Position numbers and translations under genes: made by a program | In this document: positions 30,697-51,492 of the stretch, in pieces | How the letters are laid out: the number at the start of each line of letters is the position of its first letter | Position numbering within the stretch: the stretch's first letter is position 1 | Notes under the pieces: generated by a model | Told to the model about the DNA's origin: nothing | The model's input: only the letters and a program-made list of their open reading frames with translations | Database searches by the model: none | Source: Petrimonas sulfuriphila | GTDB lineage: Bacteria > Bacteroidota > Bacteroidia > Bacteroidales > Dysgonomonadaceae | DNA length: 64,000 bases | Assembly: GCA_038561985.1 (NCBI GenBank) | Contig: CP073276.1 | Coordinates: 3,472,001 to 3,536,000 of the forward strand | Direction: 5' to 3'

Positions 30697-31272
30697 ATGG
30701 GCAAAGAAGCATGGAAAAGATTCTTAGCGGGTGATGAAAGATCTTTCGAAGCACTTTACAATACCTACTTCCCGGAGCTTTTCGCCTATGCGTTGAAAAT
30801 AGGATTCAACGAAGAAACATGCAAGGATGCGATACACGACGTCTTTTTCAAACTTTATGCATCAAAAAACAAATTGCGGCATATTCAGAACATTGAATTC
30901 TATTTGCTCGGCAGCGTAAAAAATCGGCTATTCGACATTCACACCATAGAACACAAAATACACGAAATCAACTATCTGGACTTCTTTATTGAGAATGAGA
31001 AAAACATCATTGAACAAATAATTGATGAAGAAAGGCAACTCCAGTTACAAAAAAAACTGTCACACCTGCTTCAAACTCTACCTCCCAGGCAACGGAAAAT
31101 AATCAACTATCATTATCAACTTAACCTGAATTATGCAGAAATAGGCGAAATTCTCAATCTCTCTCCCGATGCCGTAAAAAAAACATTGTACAGGGCACTC
31201 AAAAAAATGAAAGATAATTCCAGACCCCATTCGTTATCATCTCTTATATATTTATTCACAATATTTGGTTAA
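30697..31272 (+). CDS. ECF-type RNA polymerase sigma factor (SusCD-associated)
   Basis: A 191-aa sigma-70 family protein. Region 2 spans about residues 20-85 (FEALYNTYFPELFAYALKIG, DAIHDVFFKLYASKNKL). Region 4 spans about 125-175 (LPPRQRKIINYHYQLNLNYA, EIGEILNLSPDAVKKTLYRA). It belongs to the Bacteroidota polysaccharide-utilisation sigma group, normally held by the adjacent FecR-type anti-sigma factor and released when the STN domain of SusC signals substrate. The sigma, FecR and SusC genes follow one another here, so the target is probably the downstream peptidoglycan locus. Confidence 0.93.
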   Translation: MGKEAWKRFLAGDERSFEALYNTYFPELFAYALKIGFNEETCKDAIHDVFFKLYASKNKLRHIQNIEFYLLGSVKNRLFDIHTIEHKIHEINYLDFFIENEKNIIEQIIDEERQLQLQKKLSHLLQTLPPRQRKIINYHYQLNLNYAEIGEILNLSPDAVKKTLYRALKKMKDNSRPHSLSSLIYLFTIFG

Positions 31273-31331
31273 TATTCCTTAAATACGTCCTTTGGTCCAC
31301 ATTTTCCAGTCTTTGATAAAAAAGGGTGTGA

Positions 31332-32486
31332 ATGAAGCAAAACATACACGATAAAAATTTTTTGTGTGATGATCTTTTCATATACTGGAGGACTCATCCT
31401 ACCAAAGAGTTGACAGCTTTCTGGAGCAAATTTATCAGAGAGAACGAACACCTCAGGGAACCGTTTCAGGAAGCCATTTCCGAATTCGACAAAATACGAC
31501 AGGGACAATGTACATACCGGCTTGAAAAAAAAACTGTGTACCGGGAACTGCAAGGAAGACTTGGGCAGGCAAGGAGGAGAAGACTGCGGATTCTGTATGC
31601 ATCATCTGTTGCTGCCATTTTATTTTTGGTTTTGGTTACGGTACTTTATACAACCCGCCGGGAAGAAATCGTACCCGGCAAGCAAATGGCATTCATTGGA
31701 GAGGTGATGAACCGGGACAAAGTACAGTTATTCACAGAACATCAAGTGGTTGACTTGGAAAATAACGCCACAGTTCAATTCTCAGACAAGGAAAAGGCCC
31801 TGATCAGGGATTCTATCTCCCAAAAGGAAATTGATTTAAAAAACAACCGGAAAAACAGACTTATTGTCCCTTTCGGAAAAAAATCTTCGATCCTTCTTTC
31901 CGATGGATCAACCGTATATGTAAACTCCGGTACCGAATTGGAATTTCCTTCTGCTTTTTCCAGCGAGGCTCGGGAAATTAGTGTAAAAGGTGAAATCTTT
32001 ATTGAAGTGACAAAGCAAGACCATCCATTCATCATTCACACGCCTCAATCCCAGATAACCGTTTACGGAACTTCGTTCAACGTATCTTCCTATACCGATG
32101 ACCCAAGTGAATCGGTGGTGCTGGTGAACGGATCTGTGGAAGTAAAGAGCGCGGGCAACTCTTTGATGCTGAAACCTAACCAAAAAGCTGAAATTAGTAA
32201 CGGAAGTATCCAGCAACAACAGGTGGATGTTATGGAATATACCAGTTGGAAAAACGGATATATGTTGTTGAACAAAACCTCATTGACCAATGTACTCAAA
32301 AAAATCGGAAGATACTATAACATCGAATTTAATTACGATGCAGGGCTAAAACTGCACAATCAAACCTGTTCGGGGAAATTATTCCTGTCCGATAATTTTG
32401 AAGATGTGTTGCAATCATTTTCAAAAATGACCTTTCTGAATTACAACGTACTGAATGAAAGGGTTATATACATAAGTAAACCCTAA
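31332..32486 (+). CDS. FecR-family anti-sigma factor
   Basis: A 384-aa inner-membrane protein. The N-terminal cytoplasmic part (residues 1-86) would bind the sigma factor. One membrane helix follows (ILYASSVAAILFLVLVTVLY, about 87-107). The periplasmic FecR domain has VPFGKKSSILLSDGSTVYVN, VKGEIFIEVTKQDHPFIIHT and ITVYGTSFNVSSY. The end (LLNKTSLTNVLKKIGRYYNI, EDVLQSFSKMTFLNYNV) is the DUF4974 domain usual in Bacteroidota. It passes the signal from SusC's N-terminal domain to the sigma factor. It starts 59 nt after the sigma gene. Confidence 0.95.
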   Translation: MKQNIHDKNFLCDDLFIYWRTHPTKELTAFWSKFIRENEHLREPFQEAISEFDKIRQGQCTYRLEKKTVYRELQGRLGQARRRRLRILYASSVAAILFLVLVTVLYTTRREEIVPGKQMAFIGEVMNRDKVQLFTEHQVVDLENNATVQFSDKEKALIRDSISQKEIDLKNNRKNRLIVPFGKKSSILLSDGSTVYVNSGTELEFPSAFSSEAREISVKGEIFIEVTKQDHPFIIHTPQSQITVYGTSFNVSSYTDDPSESVVLVNGSVEVKSAGNSLMLKPNQKAEISNGSIQQQQVDVMEYTSWKNGYMLLNKTSLTNVLKKIGRYYNIEFNYDAGLKLHNQTCSGKLFLSDNFEDVLQSFSKMTFLNYNVLNERVIYISKP

Positions 32487-32561
32487 AAAACGTAAATTTA
32501 ATTTACATGTATCATTTAAAACAAAAAGCCTATGATAACAATCCCAAAAGAAAACTAAAAA

Positions 32562-32589
32562 GCCGAATAATGCGGTAACATTATCCGGC
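32562..32589. other. Hairpin in the fecR-susC intergenic region
   Basis: Stem GCCGAATAATG (32562-32572) / CATTATCCGGC (32579-32589), 10 of 11 paired, 6-nt loop. An A-rich run precedes it and no T-run follows in the plus direction, so it is more likely an RNA-processing or leader structure than a plus-strand terminator. It lies 58 nt before the susC ATG. Confidence 0.5.
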
Positions 32590-32647
32590 CAAAATGTAAG
32601 TGAATCATAATCTATTTGGTAACAAATTAAAATTCAATGACAAAGAT

Positions 32648-35600
32648 ATGCAAGAAAATAATAACCGTGCACATTTTACCACGAAAAAAACCGAAAAGTT
32701 TTTTACAATCATGAAAATTTATTTTTTGATAGCTTTACTCTGTATTTTTTCAATCTCGGCAGAAAACACCTATTCCCAATCAAAAACAGTGAATGCCGAA
32801 TTAAAGAACGTCACGCTGAGGGAGGCATTACAAGAAATTGAAAAAAACAGCGATTACCTCTTCCTTGTTATGGACAACACAGAGAGTTATTTAACAACTA
32901 AAGTTAACATCTCAATCAACAATAAATCAATGGTAGAGATACTCGATCTGTTGCTTAAGAATACCAATCTGACCTACTCAATTGTTAACAGACAGATTAC
33001 AATTTCGAGAAAACCGGGTATTGCTGAAAATAAGGAGATTGATGTAAAAACAAGCATCAAGGAAGTTCAACAGACAGAAAAAACAATTACAGGAGTGGTT
33101 ACCAATGCGAATGGAGAAGCCATTATCGGAGCCAATATAATTGAAGTGGGAACTCCTTCCCATGGAACTATTACCGACATTAACGGAAGATTTACACTAA
33201 ATGTAAGCAACAATGCATCCATTAAAGTCTCATTTATAGGATATCTGAGTCAAACAATCAATACTATTGGGAAGACCAGCTTAAATATCACCCTGGCTGA
33301 AGATACTCAGGCACTTGAAGAGGTGGTGGTGGTGGGCTATGGCACCCAGCGGAAAGAGAACCTTACCGGTGCCGTCTCCACCGTGGATGTGGAAAGGACA
33401 TTAAAAGCACGGCCTATAACCGATGTGGGACGAGCACTTCAGGGCTCTGCTCCTGGTCTGGTTATAAAAACTACTTCCGGGGTATTAGGCGGCTCCCCTT
33501 CAATTCGTATCAGAGGTACAGTTAGCACAATTGGGGGAGGATCAGGGAATCCTTTGATTTTAGTTGATAACGTTGAAGTTCCTGATTTATCTTATGTGAA
33601 TCCGGATAATATTAAATCAATTTCCGTATTGAAAGATGCGTCCACAACTGCAATTTATGGTGCGAGAGCAGCTTTCGGAGCCTTATTGATTACAACTAAA
33701 AAAGGAGACAAAGACCGTGCGCCCAGGATTACTTATTCGAATAATTTCTCATGGTCAACGCCGACGGATGTACCCAAACATACTCGTGCTGATTTAAACC
33801 TGCAATATTCTTTAGATCAGGCAAATGCATTAAGAGATAAACCTCTTGAGGAGCGTGGTCAGGTAGGATACTATTACAATGCAGATGTCATTAAAAAAGT
33901 CAAGGAGTGGATTGACACCTATGGAGATGGAAAAGGGCTAGGACGTGAAATGGTGGAAGGACGAGATTTTGATTACAGACCTTCTGGCGGAGTCTATTAT
34001 TATCGTCCATGGGACATTTATAAAATTTATTATAAAAACTGGACACCTCAACAAAATCAAAATATCAGTGTCAATGGCGGAACGGAAAAAACCCAATACA
34101 ACTTATCTGCTGCTTATATGAATCAGAAAGGCATCCTAAAGCTGTTTGATGATTTTTACAGAAGATATAATATTTCCGGATACCTGAGTACCGATGTAAA
34201 AGACTGGATTACATTACGGGGGCAATATATGCTCTCTAAAGTCCGGGAAGAATCTCCTTTTACCTACGGATCAGAAGTATATCAGCCAATTTATTATCTG
34301 TACAGATGGCATCAGGTATATCCCTATGGCACTTATAACGGACATGAATTCAGAGGGGCTGTGAATGATCTAAAATCCGCACGGCCTGTTGAAACAGATA
34401 GAGACTATAGCCGGTACGTGTTAGGGACTACAGTAAAACTAGCCAAGGGCTTAACTGCCGATTTTGACTATACGTATGCACAGACTTATGTTACCAATCA
34501 CACGGTTGGTGGTTACATCAGTGGCATTAACCAGTGGAATGTACCGAAAGACAAAAAATTAGATGAGTTATACGGCATTTATACTTCTGCTTCTTATGAT
34601 TATGCGCGTTATACTTCTTCAAAAAATATCAGAAACACATATAACGGATATTTAACATACGAGAATAAGTTTCAGAATCACGAATTAAAAATAACGGCTG
34701 GTACAAATATCGAAGATGCAGAATACATTTGGATGTCAACGCGCAGAAATGGCGTATATGATTTTGATAAAGGAGAGGTGAATCTTGCCGGAGGGGATCA
34801 ATTAGCCTCTTCAAGCCATTCATGGTGGTCGGTTGCCGGTTTTTTCGGCAGGATCAATTATTCATTTTTAGATAGATATTTATTAGAAGTAAGTGGCCGT
34901 TACGATGGATCTTCCCGATTCGAAAGGGGTAAAAGATGGGATTTTTTCCCTTCTCTATCCGCAGGATGGCGAATGGGTGAAGAATCTTTCATGAAGCCGT
35001 TAAAACCCATCTTAAGTTCGCTGAAAATAAGAGGAACATATGGTTCCGTTGGCAATCAGGATGTCCCCTTGAATTCGTTTATTTCCACTTTAAAAGCCTT
35101 TACTCCGTCAGGCGCAGGGAATTATTGGTTAATAAACGGCAACTTCGTCCCTTATATTAGTAGCGGACCGACTTTAGTGAATTCGGATCTGACATGGGAA
35201 AAAGTTGAATCATTTGATTTGGGTTTGGATGCCGGCTTTTTAGATCAAAAAATAAATGTCACTTTCGATTGGTATAATCGCAAGACACTCAATATGCTTG
35301 CTCCTGGTGAAACAGTACCTTCTACTGTGGGAATTGCAGCTCCGAAAAGAAATTTTGGAGAGTTGGCAACCAAAGGTGTTGAGTTAGAAGTTAGATATAA
35401 TAAACGGTTTGAAAATGGTTTACGTCTATTTGTTTCAGGACAATTTACAGATTACAAGACTGTTGTGACAAAATATGCTTCACCAAGCGACCCTCGAAAT
35501 TCCGATTCCTATTGGGAAGGTAAAGTGCTGGGGCAAATATGGGGTTATAAGACAGATGGTTTGTTTCAAAAAGAAGATTTTGTTTGGGAAGGTGATCAGA

Positions 35601-36319
35601 TAAAACAGACTATCCTTGAAAACGGACTATCGAAAAACACAATGGCGCCGGGAGTTCCCGATCAATATATATTGGAATCCGGTTTATTTAAATTTGGCCC
35701 GGGAGATGTGAAATTTAAAGATTTGAACGGAGACGGAGTGATTGATTACGGGACTAATACAGTTGGAGATCCGGGAGACAGAACAGTAATAGGGAATACA
35801 ACACCTCGGTATCAGTATGGATTCAGGTTTGGAGGAACGTGGAAAGGATTTGATGCCGATGTTTTCTTCCAGGGCGTAGGAAAACGTCATATATGGGCCA
35901 CGGGAAATATGGTACTTCCTGGTTATTATGCCGCTGAAGCCAATTTTGCTCATACGTTAGATTACTGGACCCCGGAAAATACAGGAGCATTTTATCCAAG
36001 GCCATTGGAATATAGTCAAACCGCTAAGTGGAACTACCTTCCCAATGACAGATATTTATTAAATGCAGCCTATATGCGCTTAAAAAGCCTAAACATTGGC
36101 TATAGCCTGCCGGAGAAATTATTAAAATATGTTTCCGTTGAAAAATGCAGGCTCTATTGTAATGGAGAGAACCTGTTTGAATTTGATAAGATGGGCAAAG
36201 TGCCTATTGACCCTGAAATAGATTGGGTTTACGGTGTTACGGCTAATGATTCCCGTTCATTCGGACGCAGTTATCCGTACCGCAGAACAATTTCATTCGG
36301 ATTACAGGTAGAATTCTAA
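32648..36319 (+). CDS. SusC-like TonB-dependent receptor with STN signalling domain
   Basis: A protein of about 1,223 aa. I chose ATG 32648; GTG 32600 gives 16 more residues and ATG 32711 starts right at the signal peptide (MKIYFLIALLCIFSISAENT). In order: an STN domain (TVNAELKNVTLREALQEIEK to RQITISRKP), a carboxypeptidase-regulatory-like domain (GVVTNANGEAIIGANIIEVG), a SusC box (EEVVVVGYGTQRKENLTGAV), the plug and a 22-strand barrel ending FGLQVEF. STN indicates FecA-style signalling to the FecR/ECF pair upstream. With SusD it should import a glycan; the downstream enzymes suggest peptidoglycan fragments. More AT-rich by eye than the housekeeping genes. Confidence 0.95.
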   Translation: MQENNNRAHFTTKKTEKFFTIMKIYFLIALLCIFSISAENTYSQSKTVNAELKNVTLREALQEIEKNSDYLFLVMDNTESYLTTKVNISINNKSMVEILDLLLKNTNLTYSIVNRQITISRKPGIAENKEIDVKTSIKEVQQTEKTITGVVTNANGEAIIGANIIEVGTPSHGTITDINGRFTLNVSNNASIKVSFIGYLSQTINTIGKTSLNITLAEDTQALEEVVVVGYGTQRKENLTGAVSTVDVERTLKARPITDVGRALQGSAPGLVIKTTSGVLGGSPSIRIRGTVSTIGGGSGNPLILVDNVEVPDLSYVNPDNIKSISVLKDASTTAIYGARAAFGALLITTKKGDKDRAPRITYSNNFSWSTPTDVPKHTRADLNLQYSLDQANALRDKPLEERGQVGYYYNADVIKKVKEWIDTYGDGKGLGREMVEGRDFDYRPSGGVYYYRPWDIYKIYYKNWTPQQNQNISVNGGTEKTQYNLSAAYMNQKGILKLFDDFYRRYNISGYLSTDVKDWITLRGQYMLSKVREESPFTYGSEVYQPIYYLYRWHQVYPYGTYNGHEFRGAVNDLKSARPVETDRDYSRYVLGTTVKLAKGLTADFDYTYAQTYVTNHTVGGYISGINQWNVPKDKKLDELYGIYTSASYDYARYTSSKNIRNTYNGYLTYENKFQNHELKITAGTNIEDAEYIWMSTRRNGVYDFDKGEVNLAGGDQLASSSHSWWSVAGFFGRINYSFLDRYLLEVSGRYDGSSRFERGKRWDFFPSLSAGWRMGEESFMKPLKPILSSLKIRGTYGSVGNQDVPLNSFISTLKAFTPSGAGNYWLINGNFVPYISSGPTLVNSDLTWEKVESFDLGLDAGFLDQKINVTFDWYNRKTLNMLAPGETVPSTVGIAAPKRNFGELATKGVELEVRYNKRFENGLRLFVSGQFTDYKTVVTKYASPSDPRNSDSYWEGKVLGQIWGYKTDGLFQKEDFVWEGDQIKQTILENGLSKNTMAPGVPDQYILESGLFKFGPGDVKFKDLNGDGVIDYGTNTVGDPGDRTVIGNTTPRYQYGFRFGGTWKGFDADVFFQGVGKRHIWATGNMVLPGYYAAEANFAHTLDYWTPENTGAFYPRPLEYSQTAKWNYLPNDRYLLNAAYMRLKSLNIGYSLPEKLLKYVSVEKCRLYCNGENLFEFDKMGKVPIDPEIDWVYGVTANDSRSFGRSYPYRRTISFGLQVEF

Positions 36320-36333
36320 CAAAAAAGAAAGAC

Positions 36334-38139
36334 ATGAAAAAAATATTTTATATCATACCGATTTTATTTATTTCGCTTATTGCCTGCAAAGATTATCTTG
36401 ACAGACCCGGATTAGACCAATTTGAGGATAACGAGTTTTGGACCAAAGAAGAGAATATAAGATTATATGCTCAAAAGGGTTATACCGCATATTTTTATGG
36501 GTATGGCAGCGGATATGCATGGGGCAATTTCTTTACCGGAGGTGCTTGGAGCGATGAATATAGCTCATCGGCAATATGGACGCAAAATACGGCCACATCG
36601 GGCAACGGTTGGTCATTCTCATGGGTGAGATGGGCAAATATCATGATTGAGAGGATTGAAAATATGGCCGATCTTTCTACCGAAGCCAAAGAGCATTGGC
36701 TGGGCATTGGACGTTTTTTCAGAGCTATGGAATATTCAGATCTTGCTCGTGCATTTGGAGATGTGCCATATTTCGACCGTGTGGTTTTGTATAATGATTT
36801 GAAGACAAGTTATAAAAAAAGAGATCCGCTCTCCCTGGTAGCAACAAAAATAATGGAGGATTTTCAATATGCTGCTGATAAAGTCAGAATAAATGACGGC
36901 CTTCAACAAATTAACAGAAATATAGTATTGGCTTTTATGTCAAGGGAGATGCTATACTTTGGGACATTCTTAAAATATCATAATATTGATATGGATGTAG
37001 GCAATCAACTGCTCGAAAGGGCTGCCTGGGCCGCTGAACAATTAATCAATGAAGGGCATTATCAGATAAGCGACGATTATCGGGCTATTTTTAGTTCGGA
37101 AGATCTGTCGGGCAACAAGGAAGTCATTTTATATCGTCAATATGAGTCTGCAAAAACATCTCATTGCCTTGTTTCATATAATAATTTAGAGCCTCAGACC
37201 GGCACAACCCTAAAAGTTGTAGAAACATATCTTTCTACAGATGGGTTGCCTATCAAACAATCTCCGGTATATGATTATGCATCTGATAACGGATTTAGAT
37301 TCTATGACGGTCAATATAAAAACAGAGACCCGCGCATGGCTGCAAGTTTAGTGGATTCTATCAGAATAAGTGGCCCTAATGATGCATATTCGTCTACAGG
37401 TTTTTTAACTTGGAAGTTCCTTCCTTATGAAGCAAATGCCAAAGATTTAATATATAATGGTTCGACGAACACCACAGATGCACCGGTAATAAGATACGGG
37501 GAAGTGCTACTGAATTATGCAGAAGCCAAAGCTGAACTGGGCCTGTTTGATCAGGTAGTCGCCGATAGGTCCATTAATCTGTTGCGCAAAAGGAATATCA
37601 GAAAAAATAATCAAGGTGATATATTACCGAAACTGCCGAAAATGACAGTTTCCGGTAACAATATCCTGGCAAATGGTATTGTTCTGGATGATCCTGACAG
37701 AGATCCTTCAGTGCCTCCTGTCATTTGGGAAATACGCCGGGAACGAGCAGTTGAACTATTATACGAAGGATTCAGAAAAAGTGACCTGAAACGGTGGAAA
37801 AAATATGAGTACCTCAGAACAACCGAGACGAACGGGCCAACCACATTGAGTAAAGGTGCTTATATAGATATCGATGCCTATAAGGCAAAATATTCTGCCA
37901 AACAGATTGCGAATATGATGAAAAATGTTCATTTTTATTACCCGGATCCTGATGATCAATCGAAGGCGTTTGTATATAATCTGTACGAAAATAATATGAG
38001 ACGCGACTGGGTTGCGGGCAATTCATATTATGAAAGGCAGTACCTCAAAGCAATTCCTTTGGATCAGATCAAACTCTACAAGGATATGGGATTTGAATTG
38101 GCTCAAAATCCCGGATGGGATACTCTCCAGGAAGAATAA
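36334..38139 (+). CDS. SusD/RagB-family glycan-binding lipoprotein
   Basis: A 601-aa surface lipoprotein. The signal is MKKIFYIIPILFISLIAC with lipobox LIAC (Cys18), followed by KDYLDRPG, a usual SusD start. The SusD-like and RagB domains show ENIRLYAQKGYTAYF, GIGRFFRAMEYSDLARAFGD, RYGEVLLNYAEAKAELG and IRRERAVELLYEGFRKSDLK. It forms a lid over the SusC channel and binds ligand. It starts 15 nt after susC. A strong hairpin follows 25 nt after the stop, separating the transporter pair from the enzymes. Confidence 0.96.
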   Translation: MKKIFYIIPILFISLIACKDYLDRPGLDQFEDNEFWTKEENIRLYAQKGYTAYFYGYGSGYAWGNFFTGGAWSDEYSSSAIWTQNTATSGNGWSFSWVRWANIMIERIENMADLSTEAKEHWLGIGRFFRAMEYSDLARAFGDVPYFDRVVLYNDLKTSYKKRDPLSLVATKIMEDFQYAADKVRINDGLQQINRNIVLAFMSREMLYFGTFLKYHNIDMDVGNQLLERAAWAAEQLINEGHYQISDDYRAIFSSEDLSGNKEVILYRQYESAKTSHCLVSYNNLEPQTGTTLKVVETYLSTDGLPIKQSPVYDYASDNGFRFYDGQYKNRDPRMAASLVDSIRISGPNDAYSSTGFLTWKFLPYEANAKDLIYNGSTNTTDAPVIRYGEVLLNYAEAKAELGLFDQVVADRSINLLRKRNIRKNNQGDILPKLPKMTVSGNNILANGIVLDDPDRDPSVPPVIWEIRRERAVELLYEGFRKSDLKRWKKYEYLRTTETNGPTTLSKGAYIDIDAYKAKYSAKQIANMMKNVHFYYPDPDDQSKAFVYNLYENNMRRDWVAGNSYYERQYLKAIPLDQIKLYKDMGFELAQNPGWDTLQEE

Positions 38140-38163
38140 ATAATGTTTTCACGAAAATATTCA

Positions 38164-38198: not shown

Positions 38199-38232
38199 AA
38201 TAATTGATCTCCGGAAAGCAAAATAATAATCA

Positions 38233-43050: not shown

Positions 43051-43068
43051 CCTAAACAATATTGAACA

Positions 43069-44520
43069 ATGAAGAATATAGACGCCTTTATCCTTTTCAG
43101 TCAACCTGATCAGGCAAAAAGAACAGTAGAAGAGCTCAGGCTGTCGGCATTGATAAACAACATCTTCCTGCTTTCTCCCGAAGAGATCACATCTGTTATT
43201 GAAGGATGTGAGAAGATCGTTATCGACAATTTGCAGAGTACACAAACAATTAAAAGAATCGCTCAAAAATCTACGACACCTTATACACTCATCTATCAGA
43301 AACCAACAGTGCTGAAGCCGGGGTATTTCGCCCTTGAACGGATGGTGCGTATTGCAGACGATACGCAGGCGGGAATGGTGTATGCCGACTATTATGCGGT
43401 AACCAACGGCGAAAAGAAAAATAATCCGTTAATAGAATATCAGGAGGGAAGCCTCCGTGACGATTTTAACTTCGGTTCACTACTACTTTACAATACAACT
43501 GCATTAAAGGACGCAGCGATGAGGATGCACGAAAACTATCTGTATGCCGGGCTGTATGACCTCAGGCTAAAAGTGTCGCAAAAGTATCCTGTTGTACATA
43601 TAAACGAGTACCTTTACACCGAGATTGAAGAGGATACCCGTGCGTCGGGCCAGAAAATATTCGACTATGTAGATCCTAAAAATCGGCAGGTGCAGATAGA
43701 GATGGAACAGGCCTGCACACAACATCTGAAAGATGTGGGAGCATTTCTGGAACCTGCATTCGAAAAGATTGAATTTAACCGGGGAGATTTTGAATACGAA
43801 GCGTCGGTAATTATTCCGGTACGAAACCGTATCAAAACCATCAGAGATGCAATCTCCTCTGTTCTGATGCAAAAGGCTGATTTTCCATTCAACCTGATAG
43901 TGGTTGACAACCATTCAACCGATGGCACCACTGAGGCTATCGATTCTTTTAAAAATGATGAGCGGTTAATACATATAGTCCCTGAAAGAGACGACCTGGG
44001 CATTGGAGGCTGCTGGAACATGGGTGTACATCACACAAAATGCGGAAAGTTTGCCGTGCAGTTAGACAGCGACGATGTGTACAGCGGAGAGGACACGCTA
44101 CAGAAAATTGTAAATGCTTTCTACGAACAGAACTGCGCCATGGTGGTAGGGACCTATCAGATGACCGACTTCCATATGGAAGAGATACCGCCGGGGATCA
44201 TCGACCACCGCGAGTGGACTCCCGAAAACGGAAGGAACAACGCGCTTCGCATAAACGGGCTTGGGGCGCCACGGGCTTTCTATACGCCGGTACTGCGAGA
44301 AATCAAGGTGCCCAACACCAGCTACGGAGAGGATTACGCACTCGGGCTCAACATTTCACGTCGTTATCAGATAGGACGCATTTATGATATATTGTACCTT
44401 TGCCGCCGCTGGGAGGATAACAGCGACGCTTCGCTGGACATTGTGAAAATGAATGCACATAACCTTTACAAAGACAAAATAAGGACATGGGAGCTACAGG
44501 CCAGAAAAAATCGCAAATAA
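43069..44520 (+). CDS. Tandem GT2-like glycosyltransferase
   Basis: A 483-aa protein without signal peptide or membrane helix. The C-terminal half (from about residue 243) is a family-2 GT-A domain: EASVIIPVRNRIKTIRDAIS, DNHSTDGTTEAID and the DxD region QLDSDDVYSGE (Asp333). The N-terminal 230 residues look like a second, degenerate GT-A unit (DDTQAGMVYADYYAV near 107, then LRDDFNFGSLLLYNT). Acceptor and donor are unknown. A cytoplasmic transferase in a breakdown locus is unexpected. Its last 34 nt overlap the start of the SpoIID-domain gene, so the two products are probably made together. Confidence 0.82.
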   Translation: MKNIDAFILFSQPDQAKRTVEELRLSALINNIFLLSPEEITSVIEGCEKIVIDNLQSTQTIKRIAQKSTTPYTLIYQKPTVLKPGYFALERMVRIADDTQAGMVYADYYAVTNGEKKNNPLIEYQEGSLRDDFNFGSLLLYNTTALKDAAMRMHENYLYAGLYDLRLKVSQKYPVVHINEYLYTEIEEDTRASGQKIFDYVDPKNRQVQIEMEQACTQHLKDVGAFLEPAFEKIEFNRGDFEYEASVIIPVRNRIKTIRDAISSVLMQKADFPFNLIVVDNHSTDGTTEAIDSFKNDERLIHIVPERDDLGIGGCWNMGVHHTKCGKFAVQLDSDDVYSGEDTLQKIVNAFYEQNCAMVVGTYQMTDFHMEEIPPGIIDHREWTPENGRNNALRINGLGAPRAFYTPVLREIKVPNTSYGEDYALGLNISRRYQIGRIYDILYLCRRWEDNSDASLDIVKMNAHNLYKDKIRTWELQARKNRK

Positions 44521-45830
44521 AGGAACCGTTTATTCACGCCGGCATTTTACTGGAACAGCCGAAGATCAACTTTTCGCTGCAGACAGCTTATAAATTTAAC
44601 GGAAAAGAATACACGCCAGGCGACTACTCGGTAGAGTTTTCGGATGGAGAGATTCTCTTCAATGGTCAATTATACAATGAAATTTCTTTCGAAGCAGATC
44701 GTCCGCACAAAGATAGTTTTGAACTTAAAAATGTGATTATCGGCGTTAATTTCCACTGGGAACAAAAAGAAAATCAGAGCTTTATTGGTGGATTGAAATT
44801 CATTACAGAGAACAGTGCGGTCTCTGCAATCAACATTGTTTCACTGGAAGATTATCTCACGAGCGTTATTTCGTCAGAAATGAGTGCTACCAGCTCGGAA
44901 GAGTTGCTGAAGGCACATGCGGTAATTTCCCGGAGCTGGCTTCTGGCACAGATTCAGAAGAATAAGTTGATCAGGAAAGATTACAGTACCTCGTTCGTTA
45001 GATCTACCGAAATCGTCCGATGGTACGACCGTGAAGACCATGCCAATTTCGATGTTTGTGCAGATGACCATTGTCAGCGTTATCAAGGAGTTACTAAACA
45101 ATCGACGCCGTTGGTGAAGCAAGTTGTCGAGCAAACACGTGGCGAAGTGCTCACATTTAACGGGACAATTTGCGATGCCCGCTTCTCGAAATGTTGCGGA
45201 GGGGTGACGGAGACATTTGAAAATGTATGGGAACCGGTCATCCACCCCTACCTGCAGGCTAAACCAGATAGTGAAGCAGGGGCACTTCCCGCGGATCTCA
45301 CCGGTGAAGAGAGTGCCGAAAAATGGATACGCACCTCTCCCCCAGCCTATTGTAACACGCAGAATGCGAAAGTACTGAAACAGGTTTTAAACGACTACGA
45401 CCAGGAAACCTCCGACTTTTACCGTTGGAAGGTGGACTATTCTCAACATGAATTGGCAAATCTTATCAGAGAACGGTCAGGTATCGATTTTGGAGAGATT
45501 ATCGATATGCAGCCACTCGAAAGGGGCACATCGGGCCGTATTATCCGGCTGAAGATTATCGGTACAAAACGGGTTATGACCATCGGCAAAGAGCTCGAAA
45601 TAAGGCGTACACTTTCAAGATCGCACCTCTACAGCTCTGCCTTCGTGGTGGATGCCTATGATGAAAACAATGAGGGAGTGCCGCAACTGTTCACACTCAC
45701 AGGGGCCGGATGGGGACACGGTGTGGGATTGTGCCAGATTGGAGCTGCCATGATGGCGGAGAAAGGGTACAGCTACGAAGAGATACTGCACCACTATTTC
45801 CCCGACACGAAAATCAACAATAAATACTAA
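44487..45830 (+). CDS. SpoIID/LytB-domain protein (putative lytic transglycosylase of denuded glycan)
   Basis: A 447-aa protein with the SpoIID domain: LEDYLTSVISSEM (120-132; Glu131 corresponds to the essential Glu of B. subtilis SpoIID), ELLKAHAVISRSWLLAQ, ICDARFSKCCGGVTETFENV and the closing GAGWGHGVGLCQIGA (406-420). SpoIID cuts glycan strands that lack stem peptides. I see no signal peptide at the chosen ATG (MGATGQKKSQIKEPFIHAG), which overlaps the glycosyltransferase gene by 34 nt; no better start exists downstream. Either it is cytoplasmic or exported by a non-classical route. Confidence 0.88.
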   Translation: MGATGQKKSQIKEPFIHAGILLEQPKINFSLQTAYKFNGKEYTPGDYSVEFSDGEILFNGQLYNEISFEADRPHKDSFELKNVIIGVNFHWEQKENQSFIGGLKFITENSAVSAINIVSLEDYLTSVISSEMSATSSEELLKAHAVISRSWLLAQIQKNKLIRKDYSTSFVRSTEIVRWYDREDHANFDVCADDHCQRYQGVTKQSTPLVKQVVEQTRGEVLTFNGTICDARFSKCCGGVTETFENVWEPVIHPYLQAKPDSEAGALPADLTGEESAEKWIRTSPPAYCNTQNAKVLKQVLNDYDQETSDFYRWKVDYSQHELANLIRERSGIDFGEIIDMQPLERGTSGRIIRLKIIGTKRVMTIGKELEIRRTLSRSHLYSSAFVVDAYDENNEGVPQLFTLTGAGWGHGVGLCQIGAAMMAEKGYSYEEILHHYFPDTKINNKY

Positions 45831-45836
45831 AACACA

Positions 45837-47153
45837 ATGCAAATGAATCAATCTACACGATCCCCCTGGTCTTGGATACCAACCCTTTACTTCGCCGAAG
45901 GCCTGCCATACGTGGCAGTAATGACCGTTTCGGTTATCATGTACAAGCGTTTCGGACTGTCAAACACAGAGATAGCCCTGTACACAAGCTGGTTATACCT
46001 TCCATGGGTAATCAAACCCTTCTGGAGCCCGTTTGTGGATATCCTGAGAACCAAACGGTGGTGGATCATCTCCATGCAATTGTTGATAGGTGCCGGGCTT
46101 GCAGGGGTGGCTTTTACCCTCCCTACTCCCTTCTATCTGCAGGCATCACTTGCCTTCTTCTGGCTGATGGCTTTCAGTTCGGCCACTCATGATATCGCAG
46201 CAGACGGTTTTTATATGCTTGCCCTTGACGATTCACAACAATCCTTCTTCGTTGGTATACGCAGCACCTTCTATCGCCTTGCCTCAATAACCGGTCAAGG
46301 ATTACTGGTTGTTCTGGCTGGATTCCTGGAAAAATCGACCGGCAAAATTCCTTATGCCTGGAGCATCACCTTTTTTATCCTGGCGGGACTTTTTCTGGCA
46401 TTTTTCGTCTATCACCGCTTTGTTTTGCCTTACCCGCACGCTGATACCGGAAAATCAGCCCACACACCACAGGAGGTGATGACTGAGTTTGGAAATACCT
46501 TCAAATCTTTTTTTACTAAAAAAGGAATAGGGCTGGCAATCGCTTTCATGCTACTGTACAGGCTGGCCGAAGCGATGCTTGTCAAACTGGCATCACCATT
46601 TTTATTAGACAGCCGTGATATGGGCGGATTGGGACTACACACTTCTGAAGTAGGCATAACCTATGGTACGGTGGGCGTGATCGCCCTTACACTTGGCGGA
46701 ATCATCGGCGGAATTGTGGCTTCCCGTCAGGGATTGAAATTCTGGTTGTGGCCGATGGCATTGGCCATTACGTTGCCCAATGCGGCTTATCTTCTCCTTG
46801 CGTACTTTCAGCCTGATAGTTTCATATGGGTGAATGTGGCTGTAGCTGTTGAACAGCTTGGATACGGTTTCGGATTTACGGCATATATGCTATACCTTAT
46901 CTATTTCTCACAGGGTGAACACAAAACAGCTCACTATTCCATCTGCACGGGAATTATGGCACTCGGAATGATGCTTCCGGGGATGGCTGCAGGATGGATA
47001 CAGGAACAACTGGGATACCAACACTTTTTTATCTTTATCATGATTGCTACAATCCCTACATTACTGTTGATTCCTTTCATGAAAGTGGACAAAGATTTCG
47101 GAAAATCAAAGAAAACACCTTTGCCGGATGAAGAAGTCACTACTGAACAGTAA
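45837..47153 (+). CDS. ampG: AmpG-like muropeptide permease (MFS)
   Basis: A 438-aa major facilitator protein with about 12 membrane helices. The N-terminus (SWIPTLYFAEGLPYVAVMTV, then YTSWLYLPWVIKPFWSPFVD) and SSATHDIAADGFYMLALD are characteristic of AmpG, which imports GlcNAc-anhydroMurNAc (peptides) through the inner membrane. In this locus it fits with SpoIID-like lytic transglycosylase, which releases anhydro-ended products. The start is 6 nt after the SpoIID-domain gene (ATG 45837 or 45843). Confidence 0.92.
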   Translation: MQMNQSTRSPWSWIPTLYFAEGLPYVAVMTVSVIMYKRFGLSNTEIALYTSWLYLPWVIKPFWSPFVDILRTKRWWIISMQLLIGAGLAGVAFTLPTPFYLQASLAFFWLMAFSSATHDIAADGFYMLALDDSQQSFFVGIRSTFYRLASITGQGLLVVLAGFLEKSTGKIPYAWSITFFILAGLFLAFFVYHRFVLPYPHADTGKSAHTPQEVMTEFGNTFKSFFTKKGIGLAIAFMLLYRLAEAMLVKLASPFLLDSRDMGGLGLHTSEVGITYGTVGVIALTLGGIIGGIVASRQGLKFWLWPMALAITLPNAAYLLLAYFQPDSFIWVNVAVAVEQLGYGFGFTAYMLYLIYFSQGEHKTAHYSICTGIMALGMMLPGMAAGWIQEQLGYQHFFIFIMIATIPTLLLIPFMKVDKDFGKSKKTPLPDEEVTTEQ

Positions 47154-47214
47154 CCATTCCAGCAAATAAATATGAATTAATCATTAATCCAGTAAAAAAA
47201 CAAACTCAAAAAAA

Positions 47215-48513
47215 ATGCACCGGTTAATAATCACAAAAATAAATAATTTAGGCAACTCCTGCTTTTTATTAACTAAAACAGTAGCAGCTATGGCATTAAT
47301 GCTTTACTGTATGACAATCACATCATCAGCTTTTGCCCGGAATATACGTATCAAAACCGGAATTGAAGTGCTGAAGGAGTCTAACTTCAAGATCCTTCAG
47401 GGGAAACGTGTGGGACTGATCACCAACCCTACCGGAGTGGATAATGACCTGAAATCGACGATAGATATTCTGCATGAAGCTCCCGGCGTGCAGCTTGTAG
47501 CGCTTTACGGGCCCGAACACGGTGTGCGCGGCGATGTGCATGCCGGCGACAAAATCGATTCATTCACCGATTCCAATACGGGTGTGCCCGTTTATTCCCT
47601 CTATGGTGCCACTCGAAAACCGAGCAAAGAAATGTTGAACGGTGTAGATGTCCTCGTCTACGATATTCAAGACATCGGATGCCGGTCATACACCTATATC
47701 TCAACCATGTATCTGGCAATGCAAGCGGCTGCTGAAAACGATATTGAATTTGTGGTGCTCGACCGCCCAAACCCGTTAAGCGGTTTGAAAGTAGAAGGAA
47801 ATCTTGTGGAGGAGGGATTTGTTTCGTTTGTGAGCCAGCTAAGGATTCCTTATATTTACGGCCTTACCTGTGGCGAGCTGGCAGAGATGATAATTGGCGA
47901 ACAGATGATATCAAGGCCTTGTAAGCTGACAGTGGTGAAGATGAAAAAGTGGCGCCGGAAGATGAACTTCGAGGATACCGGACTACCCTGGGTGCCCACC
48001 TCGCCACACATCCCGTTTTCTCATTCTGCATTTTTTTATCCTGTATCAGGCATTTTAGGTGAACTGGGATATATGTCTATCGGCGTTGGATATACGCTGC
48101 CGTTCGAGATGTTTGCCGCTGAATGGATCAACGCAGAAGAGTTTGCCAGGACGCTGAATGCAAAACAGCTGCCGGGTGTCATTTTCCGCCCCATACACCT
48201 GAAGCCCTATTATTCAGTTGGACAGGGACAGGACTTTCAGGGAGTACAGATATATCTTACCGATTTTTTCAGTGCACGGCTGTCGGATATCCAGTTCCAT
48301 GTAATGGAGGTGTCTGCACAGCTCTATCCAGACAGAAAAGTGTTCGAGCGCGCTCCCGAAAACCGATTCAATATGTTCGACAAGGTATGCGGTAGCGATT
48401 TTATCCGTCTGGAATTTTCCAAGAACCATCGTTTTGCCGACATTCAATCTTATTGGACAAAAGATGAAAAGTCGTTCAGATTATTATCAAAGAAATATTA
48501 CCTTTACCGGTAA
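47215..48513 (+). CDS. namZ: Exo-beta-N-acetylmuramidase NamZ (GH171, DUF1343)
   Basis: A 432-aa protein with an N-terminal hydrophobic export signal (about residues 20-41, ending SSAFA). DUF1343 motifs: GKRVGLITNPTGVDNDLKST, VALYGPEHGVRGDVHAG (Glu101, the likely catalytic acid), VLVYDIQDIGCRSYTYISTM, VVLDRPNPLSG and LPWVPTSPHIP. GH171 enzymes remove single MurNAc residues from the non-reducing end of peptide-free glycan. In Bacillus and Tannerella this feeds MurNAc salvage. It is immediately upstream of the murT-murK-murQ candidates. Confidence 0.93.
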   Translation: MHRLIITKINNLGNSCFLLTKTVAAMALMLYCMTITSSAFARNIRIKTGIEVLKESNFKILQGKRVGLITNPTGVDNDLKSTIDILHEAPGVQLVALYGPEHGVRGDVHAGDKIDSFTDSNTGVPVYSLYGATRKPSKEMLNGVDVLVYDIQDIGCRSYTYISTMYLAMQAAAENDIEFVVLDRPNPLSGLKVEGNLVEEGFVSFVSQLRIPYIYGLTCGELAEMIIGEQMISRPCKLTVVKMKKWRRKMNFEDTGLPWVPTSPHIPFSHSAFFYPVSGILGELGYMSIGVGYTLPFEMFAAEWINAEEFARTLNAKQLPGVIFRPIHLKPYYSVGQGQDFQGVQIYLTDFFSARLSDIQFHVMEVSAQLYPDRKVFERAPENRFNMFDKVCGSDFIRLEFSKNHRFADIQSYWTKDEKSFRLLSKKYYLYR

Positions 48514-48535
48514 ACTTCGTAAAAAGAAGTTTTTT
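48512..48535 (+). terminator. Terminator-like hairpin after namZ
   Basis: Stem AAACTTC (48512-48518) / GAAGTTT (48526-48532), loop of 7 nt, followed by Ts to 48535. It overlaps the namZ stop codon. Weak stem, so probably partial termination. Confidence 0.5.
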
Positions 48536-48559
48536 GCACAATGGTACTAACATAATACT

Positions 48560-48580
48560 TGCATAAACCGGGTTTATGCA
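48560..48580. promoter_or_regulatory. 21-bp perfect palindrome between namZ and the murT candidate
   Basis: TGCATAAACC-G-GGTTTATGCA: 10-bp arms around one central base, 38 nt before the next ATG. The tiny centre suits a dimeric DNA-binding regulator better than an RNA hairpin, although TGCATAAA/TTTATGCA with a 5-nt loop could also fold. Confidence 0.55.
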
Positions 48581-48617
48581 TTCAATAAATAATTCAACAA
48601 CAATATATTATTGAAAG

Positions 48618-49790
48618 ATGAACAGAATTACTTCACCTGATAAAAGCGGAAGGCTGCTTTCGCTTGATATTCTGCGCGGAATAACTATAGCGGGTATGAT
48701 CATGGTCAACAACCCCGGTTCGTGGACTTACGCCTATGCGCCATTCAAACACGCTCACTGGCATGGACTCACACCGACTGACCTGGTATTTCCCTTCTTC
48801 ATGTTTATCATGGGGGTATCTACCTTTATGTCACTGCGAAAATTTAACTTTGAACCCTCCAAAACAGCCGTCTGGAAAATTGTACGGCGTACCTTCCTCA
48901 TCTTCGTGATCGGACTGGCACTGGGATGGTTTGGGCAACTTACGCGGGGTCTTGCTTCCGGAGAACCCTTCGGTGTGGCGGCAAGCCATTTCGACACCCT
49001 GCGCATACTCGGAGTACTGCAAAGGCTGGCGTTGGCATACGGCTTTGCCGCCCTGACTGCTGTTCTTGTGAAGGGTAAACTGCTCCCGTGGGTGGTTGGC
49101 ATCCTGCTCCTGGGGTATTACCTGATTCTTCGTTTCGGAAAAGGGTTTGAGATGTCGGAAGAGAATATTATAGCGGTGGTCGACAAAGCACTCATGGGTA
49201 CTTCCCATATGTACAAGGACACTACACCGGAAGGAGTACGCATCGCATTCGAACCCGAAGGGCTGCTCAGCACCCTCCCCTCCGTCGCCCACGTACTGAT
49301 CGGGTTTCTTTCCGGAAAACTGATTGTGGAGAACAAAGACAACCACACCCGGGTGGAGAAACTGCTGATATGGGGTACGATACTGGCATTTTCGGGATTA
49401 CTCCTGCAGTACGGATGCCCCATTAACAAGAAGATATGGAGCTCCACATTCGTGCTAACTACCACCGGCTTTGCCGCGCAACTGCTGGGACTGCTGATCT
49501 GGATCATCGATATCCATCAAAAAGAGCGATGGAGCCGTTTCTTTCACGCCTTCGGGGTAAATCCACTCATCGTATATGTTTTTGCAGGCGTAATGGCCAA
49601 CCTGGTCGCCAACATCCGGCTTAACTGGCAGGGAGAGATAATCTCTGTAAAAGGGTTTATTTACGAAGTGCTGCTGCGCCCGTGGGCGGGGGACTATTTC
49701 GGATCGCTGCTCTATGCGCTGCTGTTCATTACGTTCTGTTGGCTGTTCGGATATATACTGTACAGAAAAAAGATTTATATTAAACTATAA
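48618..49790 (+). CDS. DUF5009/NagX-type membrane protein, candidate MurNAc transporter (MurT)
   Basis: A 390-aa polytopic membrane protein of the acyltransferase-3-like NagX/HGSNAT group (DUF5009): RLLSLDILRGITIAGMIMVN, HWHGLTPTDLVFPFFMFIMG, FDTLRILGVLQRLALAYGFA and RFFHAFGVNPLIVYVFAGVM. About ten helices. As I recall, the gene at this place in Tannerella forsythia encodes a MurNAc transporter (MurT) next to murK and murQ; elsewhere such proteins are called heparan-alpha-glucosaminide N-acetyltransferases. Position 14 nt before murK supports sugar uptake or modification, but I cannot tell transport from acetyl transfer. Confidence 0.8.
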   Translation: MNRITSPDKSGRLLSLDILRGITIAGMIMVNNPGSWTYAYAPFKHAHWHGLTPTDLVFPFFMFIMGVSTFMSLRKFNFEPSKTAVWKIVRRTFLIFVIGLALGWFGQLTRGLASGEPFGVAASHFDTLRILGVLQRLALAYGFAALTAVLVKGKLLPWVVGILLLGYYLILRFGKGFEMSEENIIAVVDKALMGTSHMYKDTTPEGVRIAFEPEGLLSTLPSVAHVLIGFLSGKLIVENKDNHTRVEKLLIWGTILAFSGLLLQYGCPINKKIWSSTFVLTTTGFAAQLLGLLIWIIDIHQKERWSRFFHAFGVNPLIVYVFAGVMANLVANIRLNWQGEIISVKGFIYEVLLRPWAGDYFGSLLYALLFITFCWLFGYILYRKKIYIKL

Positions 49791-49803
49791 ACAACCAATC
49801 AAA

Positions 49804-50658
49804 ATGGATCATTCACAATCAGGAGGTAATATACTGATCGCCGACAGCGGCGCTACCAAGACCGACTGGTGCCTGACATACGGAGGAGAGATCGTGCAGC
49901 GGTTTTCCACAAAAGGAATCAGCCCGGTCTATCAGACTGAGGAGGAGATCGCAGAAGAAATCAGGTTACATGCCTACCCTCTCCTGAAGGGAAAAAAGGT
50001 TCAGTCGATCCATTTTTACGGGTCCGGCTGTATCCCGGAAAAAATCGTTTTTGTGAAGAACGCCATATACCGTTCGTTTCCCATCGATGCCATCTGTATA
50101 TATAGCGACTTGATGGCTGCAGCGCACAGCCTCTGCGGGCATAATGCCGGGATCGCCTGTATCCTGGGTACCGGAAGCAACTCCTGTGAATGGGATGGCT
50201 ACAACATGGTCAAACAGGTATCTCCACTGGGGTTTATCCTGGGCGATGAAGGAAGTGGCGCAGTACTGGGCAAGCAATTGGTCAGCGATGCGCTGAAAAA
50301 TCAGTTGTCGGAAGGATTAAAAGAGGAACTCCTCGCCGAATACGATCTGGACCAGGCAACCATTATCGATAAAGTATATAGACAACCTTTCCCCAGCAGG
50401 TTTCTGGCAACACTTGCACCCTTTTTATGGAAACATATCGAAGAGCAATCCATTCGGCGTATTGTTGAACGAAGTTTTTCCGATTTCTTCGAACGAAACG
50501 TGATGCAATACAATTATCAGAAAAATAAGGTTAATTTTGTAGGCTCAATCGCATGGTATTTTTCCGGTGTTTTACGCAAAGTTGCTGAAGAAAAAAAAAT
50601 AAAGATCGGAAAGATTGAACAATCGCCCATGGAAGGATTAATAAAATTTTATTCGTAA
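49804..50658 (+). CDS. murK: BadF/BadG-type amino-sugar kinase, probable MurNAc kinase (MurK)
   Basis: A 284-aa ASKHA kinase of the BadF/BadG/GlcNAc-kinase family: NILIADSGATKTDWCLTYGG, GIACILGTGSNSCEWDG and GFILGDEGSGAVLGKQLVSD. It starts 14 nt after the membrane protein and ends 12 nt before murQ. Its product would be MurNAc-6-P, the MurQ substrate, or GlcNAc-6-P. I chose ATG 49804 because upstream in-frame starts lie inside the previous gene. MurK is assigned from family plus neighbours; plain GlcNAc kinase is the alternative. Confidence 0.85.
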   Translation: MDHSQSGGNILIADSGATKTDWCLTYGGEIVQRFSTKGISPVYQTEEEIAEEIRLHAYPLLKGKKVQSIHFYGSGCIPEKIVFVKNAIYRSFPIDAICIYSDLMAAAHSLCGHNAGIACILGTGSNSCEWDGYNMVKQVSPLGFILGDEGSGAVLGKQLVSDALKNQLSEGLKEELLAEYDLDQATIIDKVYRQPFPSRFLATLAPFLWKHIEEQSIRRIVERSFSDFFERNVMQYNYQKNKVNFVGSIAWYFSGVLRKVAEEKKIKIGKIEQSPMEGLIKFYS

Positions 50659-50670
50659 CTTATAACCCGT

Positions 50671-51492
50671 ATGACTTTCATCAAAATAACCGAACAACCC
50701 TCGCTTTACAACGATTTGGAGAAAAAACCGATATTCGAAATTCTTGCAGAAATCAATCAGGAAGACCAAAAAGTAGCTCTTGCCGTACAAAAGACCCTTT
50801 CCGAATTAGAAAAGCTCGTTACAGGAATTGTGGAACGCATGAAACGAGGCGGGAGGCTTTTCTATATAGGGGCCGGAACCAGCGGAAGGCTTGGCGTGCT
50901 GGATGCGTCGGAGATTCCCCCCACATATGGAATGCCCGACACATACGTTATCGGGCTGATTGCAGGTGGTGATTCCGCTCTGCGCAACCCGGTAGAAGCG
51001 GCGGAGGATAACTACGACCAGGCTTGGGAAGAACTGTTGGAATACAAAATCAATCAAAACGACACGCTGGTAGGCATCGCCGCATCGGGCACCACTCCAT
51101 ACGTTATCGGAGCATTACGTAAAGCAAGGGAGAAAGGAATCCTTACCGGGGCAATAAGCTGCAATCCGGGCTCGCCCGTAGCCGCGGAAGCTGAGATAAA
51201 AATTGAACCAGTCGTAGGTCCTGAATATGTTACCGGAAGTACCCGAATGAAATCGGGTACTGCACAAAAACTCGTGCTCAACATGATTACCACAGCCACA
51301 ATGATAAAATTGGGAAGAGTAAAAGGCAACAAAATGGTAAATATGCAACTGACCAATCAAAAACTCGTGGACAGGGGAACCCGGATGATCGTTGACGAAC
51401 TCGGGTTATCTTATGAGCAGGCAAAAAACCTGCTCCTGCTACATGGAAATGTAAAAACAGCGATAGAGATATATAAAAATCAACAAAAATAA
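50671..51492 (+). CDS. murQ: N-acetylmuramic acid 6-phosphate etherase
   Basis: A 273-aa SIS-domain lyase. LFYIGAGTSGRLGVLDASEI, PPTYGMPD, GIAASGTTPYVIGALRKARE and TGSTRMKSGTAQKLVLNMIT are MurQ signatures; the Glu in DASEIPP is a catalytic residue. It cleaves the lactyl ether of MurNAc-6-P to give GlcNAc-6-P and D-lactate, so peptidoglycan sugar enters central metabolism. It is shorter than E. coli MurQ (298 aa) but keeps all motifs. GlcNAc-6-P deacetylase and deaminase are not in the window. Confidence 0.97.
   Translation: MTFIKITEQPSLYNDLEKKPIFEILAEINQEDQKVALAVQKTLSELEKLVTGIVERMKRGGRLFYIGAGTSGRLGVLDASEIPPTYGMPDTYVIGLIAGGDSALRNPVEAAEDNYDQAWEELLEYKINQNDTLVGIAASGTTPYVIGALRKAREKGILTGAISCNPGSPVAAEAEIKIEPVVGPEYVTGSTRMKSGTAQKLVLNMITTATMIKLGRVKGNKMVNMQLTNQKLVDRGTRMIVDELGLSYEQAKNLLLLHGNVKTAIEIYKNQQK

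Follow-up and report, generated by a model that had tools for sequence, protein, structure and literature searches.

A putative peptidoglycan utilisation locus in Petrimonas sulfuriphila, with a mosaic SusCD import block beside a known N-acetylmuramic acid operon

Introduction

How do Bacteroidota that use the walls of other bacteria bring the wall glycan across their own outer membrane? The question, which is not addressed in the available text of the work on Tannerella forsythia, is raised by a locus of thirteen genes (positions 30697–51492) in a stretch of 64,000 nucleotides of Petrimonas sulfuriphila (hereafter the window; assembly GCA_038561985.1, contig CP073276.1, positions 3472001–3536000 of a one-contig genome of 3.83 Mb), where genes for the use of peptidoglycan follow those of a SusC/SusD-type importer (SusCD). 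As argued below, it is probable that the locus is a peptidoglycan-directed polysaccharide utilisation locus (PUL), in which an import block is joined to the known Bacteroidales operon for N-acetylmuramic acid (MurNAc) and muropeptides, with peptidoglycan suggested as the putative SusCD substrate by the company of genes only. A known operon is paired here with a known importer class, and the pairing was not found described: no paper on SusCD for peptidoglycan was found in the open-licence PMC literature, as judged by listings and first abstract lines.

It is noted that statements on published work refer to the available portions of the papers cited, that domain calls are from Pfam and NCBIfam, scored against family cut-offs, and that loci of relatives are coded L###, genomes G### (the own genome being G000).

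Results

Gene content and order of the locus

The listing of open reading frames (ORFs) gives thirteen ORFs, every one on the + strand and at the positions of the first-pass annotation of the window, with functions roughly as assigned there. They are as follows, together with the block discussed below.

30697–31272, + strand: extracytoplasmic function (ECF) sigma factor (PF08281, 59.5 bits; 100% nucleotide identity to a contig, L009/L112, of a Proteiniphilum metagenome-assembled genome (MAG), in 300-bp bins)
31332–32486, + strand: FecR-type anti-sigma factor (PF04773 and PF16344, i.e., FecR and FecR_C, above cut-off)
32600–36319, + strand: SusC-type TonB-dependent transporter with STN signalling domain (STN, Plug, CarbopepD_reg_2; TIGR04056, 859 bits, cut-off 368)
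36334–38139, + strand: SusD-type surface glycan-binding lipoprotein (SusD_RagB, PF07980, 113.8 bits; lipobox LIAC by eye)
38233–39678, + strand: GHL10 glycosidase-like lipoprotein, Cwp19-like (PF02638, 217 bits, cut-off 27.9; Cwp19 5oq2, E 1e-76; lipobox LIGC by eye)
39967–42999, + strand: predicted divergent protein of the Amidase_3 fold that carries fn3 and an inserted golvesin domain (Golvesin_C and fn3 matches; position of the "xanthan lyase" Tanf_08345)
43069–44520, + strand: GT2 glycosyltransferase, kept in the operon (PF00535; order in relatives)
44487–45830, + strand: SpoIID/LytB-type lytic transglycosylase-like protein, predicted cytoplasmic (TIGR02669 above cut-off; Glu131 invariant)
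45837–47153, + strand: muropeptide permease of the major facilitator superfamily (MFS), called AmpG-like because TIGR00901 (183.6 bits, E 5e-54) stays under its cut-off of 350
47215–48513, + strand: NamZ exo-beta-N-acetylmuramidase (GH171) with N-terminal hydrophobic stretch (NamZ_N and NamZ_C, PF07075 and PF20732, both above cut-off; PDB 4k05, E 3.5e-193)
48618–49790, + strand: MurT-like inner-membrane protein, DUF5009/NagX-like (PF16401, 25.8 against a cut-off of 25; NF046061 under cut-off; order as in T. forsythia)
49714–50658, true start probably ~49804, + strand: MurK-like MurNAc kinase (no Pfam match; PDB 8oqw/8ow9, E 4.5e-86)
50671–51492, + strand: MurQ MurNAc-6-phosphate etherase (TIGR00274, 321.8 bits, above the cut-off of 302)
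30709–40017, + strand: block missing from Petrimonas sp. IBARAKI, which has ~147 bp there

As in a SusCD-type PUL, susC and susD are adjacent and stand with co-directional genes for glycan-active enzymes (GHL10, NamZ), and the domain scan finds every part of FecIRA-type signalling, the STN domain on the receptor completing to a trio the sigma/anti-sigma pair noted in the first pass. Tandem susC-susD, a lipoprotein glycosidase, ECF sigma factor, FecR and STN-bearing SusC are likewise the parts of ECF-controlled SusCD PULs, which often serve host glycans; the window differs from these in that its enzymes are for peptidoglycan, with the substrate being putative. The GHL10 protein, of the class to which DigH also belongs, aligns with Cwp19 over residues 38–391, and it differs in being a lipoprotein inside a SusCD locus, with a predicted activity. 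For Petrimonas mucosa ING2-E5A, of the same genus (family Dysgonomonadaceae, as named in PMC7768429), 39 PULs are reported and peptidoglycan use is held most probable from lysozyme-type glycoside hydrolases, with no peptidoglycan PUL described in the available portion of that paper (PMC7768429).

The MurNAc half and the published operon

The last eight genes (39967–51492, amidase-like to MurQ) match the T. forsythia operon Tanf_08345–08385 in gene kinds and order, as compared by the gene names of the paper only: there the order is xanthan lyase, gtf, gtf, lytB, ampG, ybbC, murT, murK and murQ (PMC5388701), and here it is amidase-like, GT2, SpoIID, AmpG-like, NamZ, MurT-like, MurK-like and MurQ, with one GT2 gene where T. 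forsythia has two gtf genes (the second being Tanf_08355). The T. forsythia operon is a single transcript, which starts 17 bp 5' of the first gene and is activated by GppX (PMC5388701); AmpG is required for growth on peptidoglycan, with data indicating the import of GlcNAc-MurNAc and GlcNAc-anhydroMurNAc (GlcNAc, N-acetylglucosamine; PMC7670621). The sigma/FecR/SusCD/GHL10 block of the window is no part of that operon as published in the text available. The peptidoglycan-use cluster proposed in the first pass is thus borne out by gene content and published operon order. The accompanying statement that the MurNAc part alone is known from Tannerella was too narrow, with eight of the thirteen genes following the published operon, and the pathway layout had left out the GT2 gene.

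Among 36 named loci in which both the amidase and the GT2 gene occur, 13 have all eight operon genes, several others being cut by contig ends, and in many other Bacteroidales a DUF4922 gene lies between GT2 and SpoIID. In IBARAKI no NamZ match lies between AmpG and MurT (L103:17034–19749), where Crp-like, YceI-like and NmrA-like genes are seen by eye. The kinase matches MurK chains of the PDB at E 4.5e-86 and chains labelled N-acetylglucosamine kinase at 4e-69, with its top PDB match overall being an uncharacterised chain (1zxo). By alignment it keeps the S-P-L triplet, residues described for MurNAc binding in MurK (PMC10465942), with Ser at the T94 position, and the chains labelled N-acetylglucosamine kinase carry R-A, fitting the paralogue K1058 of that paper.

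The amidase-like and SpoIID-type proteins

The amidase named in the first pass does not reach the Pfam gathering score of Amidase_3 in the window protein (14.5 versus 27 bits), but the catalytic pattern and the predicted fold agree with it. Among 32 aligned members, the others being 33–77% identical to the window protein, Amidase_3 is matched in 29 at E up to 1, the window's included (best 2e-7), and H163, E186, H487 and E570, which we take to be the Amidase_3 zinc and catalytic ligands, are invariant in 32 of 32. Golvesin_C lies inside the Amidase_3-like domain. With the structure model (pLDDT 91.3, pTM 0.92) Foldseek returned chiefly fn3 and golvesin matches, with the CwlD amidase at rank 15 (TM by target 0.57). 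The match to the Paenibacillus xanthan lyase covers the golvesin part only. Judged by motifs and model, the "xanthan lyase" is a predicted divergent Amidase_3-fold amidase.

For N-terminal signals, a stretch is called hydrophobic when an 11-residue mean is at least 2.0 within the first 45 residues, with 1.6 as a laxer mark. Such a stretch is found in SusD (33/33), GHL10 (16/17), the amidase (92/102) and NamZ (31/33; rows including the window and fragments), and in 1 of 67 GT2 proteins at 2.0. None of the 59 SpoIID proteins, the window's included, has one at 2.0, and 10 of 59 do at 1.6; because an in-frame stop begins 27 nucleotides upstream of the first start codon, the window SpoIID cannot carry a Sec signal. 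Without an export signal it should not cut denuded strands outside the cytoplasm, as had been proposed in the first pass, and it should instead act on AmpG-imported material or play another role. E131 of its EM motif, presumably the catalytic Glu of SpoIID/LytB lytic transglycosylases, is invariant in 29 of 29 and aligns with SpoIID of the PDB.

Recurrence of SusD before the amidase gene

The amidase gene occurs in 72 of 101 genomes of the family and in 43 of 295 of the order, 5 of the 43 belonging to the family. Compared were 61 loci from 59 family genomes and 39 loci from 38 genomes outside the family; besides the window's own genome, 12 of the 72 were left out, mostly contig-end fragments (with SusD upstream by coordinates in G016 and on the other strand in G019). 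In 35 of the 61 family loci SusD stands upstream of the amidase gene in an unbroken same-strand chain, 6 loci being too short to judge, and about 2.8 of 66 genomes would be expected by chance (66 of the 72, kinship ignored), so that the pairing is beyond chance. Co-occurrence of susCD with the mur genes in relatives, the absence of which had been named in the first pass as evidence against its proposal, is therefore found within the family. At least two of GT2, SpoIID, AmpG and NamZ are in the stretch in 20 of the 35 loci with SusD and in 15 of the 26 without it.

Among SusD matches of at least 250 bits, 30 of 46 lie on the strand of the amidase gene and no more than 16 kb away from it, versus 8 of the 68 weaker ones, where 68 is a lower bound because at most 13 candidates were scored per genome. 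The other 16 strong matches comprise three at NamZ/AmpG-type sets (L194, L195, L197), three on truncated contigs that resemble the same cassettes (L188, L189, L190), eight either bare or of GH9 type (G063:C92, G040:C13 twice, G002:C43, G067, G091, G092, G039), one free DUF4623-GHL10 block (L193) and one on the opposite strand (G019). On quick trees, the SusCD state needs 12 changes along the amidase tree, at least 10 by starred branches. Along the SusD tree the peptidoglycan label takes 18 changes (at least 15); the 92 rows of this tree contain duplicates of identical sequence taken from named loci (L126, L127) and include L215, so labelled for a MurQ-like gene only.

At places in Dysgonomonas other than thyA-folA, the amidase gene is preceded by SusDs of the window's wider clade (L037, L038, L041, L042) and by those of a distant clade (L044, L048), and in the Bacteroides MAG loci L158 and L162 SusC-SusD and small or other genes are followed by NamZ-SSF-amidase-...-SpoIID-AmpG-NamZ. 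FecR goes with SusCs of 1223–1320 residues in 15 of the 35 loci; in Dysgonomonas-coded loci the SusCs have 1026–1172 residues where complete, no FecR was seen, and three that were scanned are without STN.

The genes that accompany SusCD vary among the sister loci, and further peptidoglycan genes among them (NamZ, MurK and MurQ, a PdaA-like deacetylase, NlpC/P60, an epimerase-like gene) speak for a peptidoglycan PUL. The order SusD-DUF4623-GHL10-amidase is found in seven family loci, in eleven SusD is directly followed by the amidase gene, and others add GH9, GH42, NamZ, or NamZ-SSF-MurK-MurQ-(beta-lactamase fold)-metallophosphatase. Several Dysgonomonas loci have NlpC/P60 close by, together with an epimerase-like gene whose match to the L-Ala-D/L-Glu type stays under cut-off. 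A DUF4623-type protein lies between SusD and GHL10 in L003, L005, L021, L032 and L193; DUF4623 has no match in the window genome and none above cut-off in 21 genomes (the own and 20 relatives, a set without cassette-bearing genomes). In the Dysgonomonas-type loci L037, L041, L043, L126 and L130, ROK kinase, MFS, SIS, creatininase-family and GH9 genes, mostly with a deacetylase, form a unit before the amidase gene, which looks like a GlcNAc/glucosamine branch.

Mosaic structure of the import block

The import block of the window is a mosaic. The ECF, FecR and initial susC parts match the Proteiniphilum MAG contig L009/L112 at 95–100% of nucleotides in 300-bp bins, the bin at 32.9–33.2 kb is 99% identical to G052, a one-contig genome coded with Proteiniphilum, and the stretch at 33.5–38.0 kb, which covers susD and the plug and barrel parts of susC, is most like L183, L184 and L186 (69–78%). 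From GHL10 through NamZ the identity to G052 is again 94–100%, save the first 0.9 kb, which is nearest to L021 (86–95%). The source thus switches within susC near 32.9 kb and, for the last time, between ~33.2 and 33.5 kb. It is noted that L009/L112, from a MAG in which another and dissimilar copy exists, is possibly contamination, and that L003/L199 is a one-contig genome.

The protein gives the same picture: SusC residues 1–100 are 96% identical to L009 and residues 101–200 are 98% identical to L003, and beyond residue 300 the identity to L183, L184 and L186 is 64–89%. Besides the SusC of the window, the ECF-linked SusCs of L003 and L009 contain STN, which has no Pfam match at E 0.001 in the SusCs of L183, L184, L186 (1100–1107 residues), L041, L042 and L047. 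By segment identities and STN distribution, the SusC N-terminus and barrel come from different lineages. SusC is therefore a chimera, of which the first ~250 residues are like those of ECF-linked, STN-bearing SusCs, with plug and barrel from an STN-less lineage; the signalling N-terminus has been kept, and barrel and SusD have been exchanged. SusCD pairs stand in tandem in L013, L015, L184 and L187, a possible reservoir for such exchange.

Discussion

Proposed pathway

The following pathway is proposed. The GHL10 lipoprotein would cut wall glycan at the cell surface, with SusD binding and SusC importing the pieces, after which the periplasmic amidase-fold protein would take off stem peptides and NamZ would clip terminal MurNAc. 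The AmpG-like and MurT-like proteins would then bring disaccharides and MurNAc inward, where MurK and MurQ would convert MurNAc into GlcNAc-6-phosphate and D-lactate and the SpoIID-type protein may act in the cytoplasm on the imported sugars. A ligand on SusC would signal through STN and FecR to the sigma factor, by which the import block would be raised.

If this is true, bacterial necromass joins the substrates of PULs. Concrete SusCD candidates for feeding on the walls of other bacteria are provided by this locus and related ones, some being in named strains (Proteiniphilum, Dysgonomonas).

Evidence against the proposal and competing explanations

Several observations weigh against a peptidoglycan-directed PUL. 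In 20 of the 61 family loci no SusD is found with at least 6 kb of upstream sequence, 12 of them having the amidase gene directly after folA (L043 counts as without SusD only since its region ends early, a SusD match lying 11.7 kb upstream by coordinates). Fewer than two core genes are seen in 15 of the 35 SusD-amidase loci, which is partly due to stretch ends, but in several Dysgonomonas loci to the absence of the AmpG-NamZ set. The SusCD-amidase neighbourhood expected across Bacteroidales is recurrent within the family, but outside it a SusD chain is seen in 2 of 39 loci, with SusD upstream in one more (3 of 39 in total). A 9.3-kb block with the ECF sigma factor, FecR, SusC, SusD and GHL10 is missing from the same-species Petrimonas sp. 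IBARAKI, which is 99.8% identical to the window at 24091–28483 and 99.3% at 48654–51809. A gap of 288 bp lies upstream of the amidase gene, and some sister loci have inverted repeats (by eye) and TAnnTTTG, which we take to be the Bacteroides −7 box, between SusD and the amidase gene. The nearest SusD relatives (74–75% identity among at most 13 candidates scored per genome) are not at a peptidoglycan operon, L184 and L186 being beside GH9 and L183 without an enzyme, and the GH9 and GH42 proteins of sister blocks also fit other polymers. Of the proposal that SusCD serves peptidoglycan, the recurrent co-occurrence in the family stands, and the substrate is a putative one.

It is conceivable, though rather unlikely, that SusCD and GHL10 serve another amino-sugar or glucosamine polymer (chitin, chitosan-like, capsule or de-N-acetylated glycan), the GlcNAc of which would enter the same downstream steps, with the MurNAc operon being a convenient neighbour. 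This would fit the above company of the nearest SusDs, away from MurNAc genes, the GH9 (with endoglucanases as the best PDB matches of the L014 protein), GH42, ROK kinase, SIS isomerase and creatininase family of the sister blocks, and the best PDB match of SusD, the sialic-acid binder NanU (E 4.5e-8). The two GH9 proteins inspected (L005, L014), however, bear deacetylase domains of the PdaA/PgdA type, that of L014 being nearest to PdaA/PdaB/PgdA. Moreover, of six GH9-type SusCD loci that do not lie at the amidase gene, three are followed by a Peptidase_S13 (PBP4) gene, though this is perhaps a housekeeping neighbour (L185, L186, L187, with GH9 and then the PBP4-type gene in L186 and in L185, the next stretch of L184; it is not in L191 and L192, and L196 ends too soon), and two Dysgonomonas blocks (L044, L048) put NamZ, MurK and MurQ between a distant-clade SusD and the amidase gene.

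Two further explanations have less in their favour. That a PUL simply landed in an insertion hotspot between folA and the MurNAc operon, with no functional link, is improbable: the block is strain-variable and mosaic, and many family genomes hold tens of SusD candidates, as expected from a hotspot, but ECF and FecR are present in all 11 compared family loci that have SusD as well as thyA or folA ahead of the amidase gene (though a single ancestral insertion would have the same effect), and SusDs of the same wider clade lie next to amidase or NamZ/AmpG genes elsewhere too, among others in Dysgonomonas. In addition, 20 background SusD loci, chosen from the 68 matches below 250 bits and as not adjoining the amidase gene, the absence of which is thus by choice, have no AmpG, NamZ, SpoIID, GHL10 or DUF4623 match, a MurQ-like gene being present in one (L215). 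Very improbable is the explanation that the locus recovers the turnover products of the cell's own wall rather than feeding on others: AmpG and MurQ also work in recycling in other bacteria, and the core operon also occurs without SusCD, yet a TonB importer and surface lipoproteins point outward, and in T. forsythia foreign peptidoglycan is used by way of the AmpG that the homologous operon encodes (PMC7670621).

Returning to the peptidoglycan-directed PUL, we tentatively extend it, at a probability clearly lower than that of the PUL itself, to a whole family of such PULs, where the intracellular MurNAc pathway would stay fixed together with the sigma/FecR/STN switch, and the outer-membrane module, i.e., the SusC barrel and SusD with GHL10, DUF4623, GH9-PdaA or NamZ, would be swapped by recombination between species or genera, retuning the wall type or fragment taken in. 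The window may have caught one such swap inside susC near the plug start. If true, this would be an example of modular importer exchange beneath a fixed switch.

Regulation and transcript boundaries

It is doubtful that the whole 13-gene locus is one regulon, as the first pass had it, with the 288-bp gap, the start of the T. forsythia transcript 17 bp ahead of the homologous gene and the family loci without SusD speaking against it. A scan of 30100–40100 gave no terminator-like site within the gap and one promoter-like match in it (39898–39925), such matches being no more frequent in the region than in shuffles (34 versus 28.3, sd 5.0); the hairpin that follows GHL10 is hardly more stable than shuffled sequence (z −0.77), and TAnnTTTG is not in the window's gap, although several sister loci have it close to the amidase gene. 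An independent promoter or terminator before 39967 was thus given no support by scans, shuffles and hairpin fold, which favour neither one transcript nor two.

Other observations

Between susD and the GHL10 gene, at 38164–38198, there is a 16-pair inverted repeat scored as a minus-strand terminator, which is perhaps an attenuator. The GT2 gene lies within a degradative operon here and likewise in many relatives, and the first 245 residues of its product match no Pfam family at E 0.001. A second NamZ is encoded in the own genome, distant from the operon (G000:C1:1386047–1386646; L002, L198). Following MurQ is an ORF of 113 residues (51501–51842) with no Pfam match, which has the same place in many Proteiniphilum and Petrimonas loci and is succeeded in the window by gltS.

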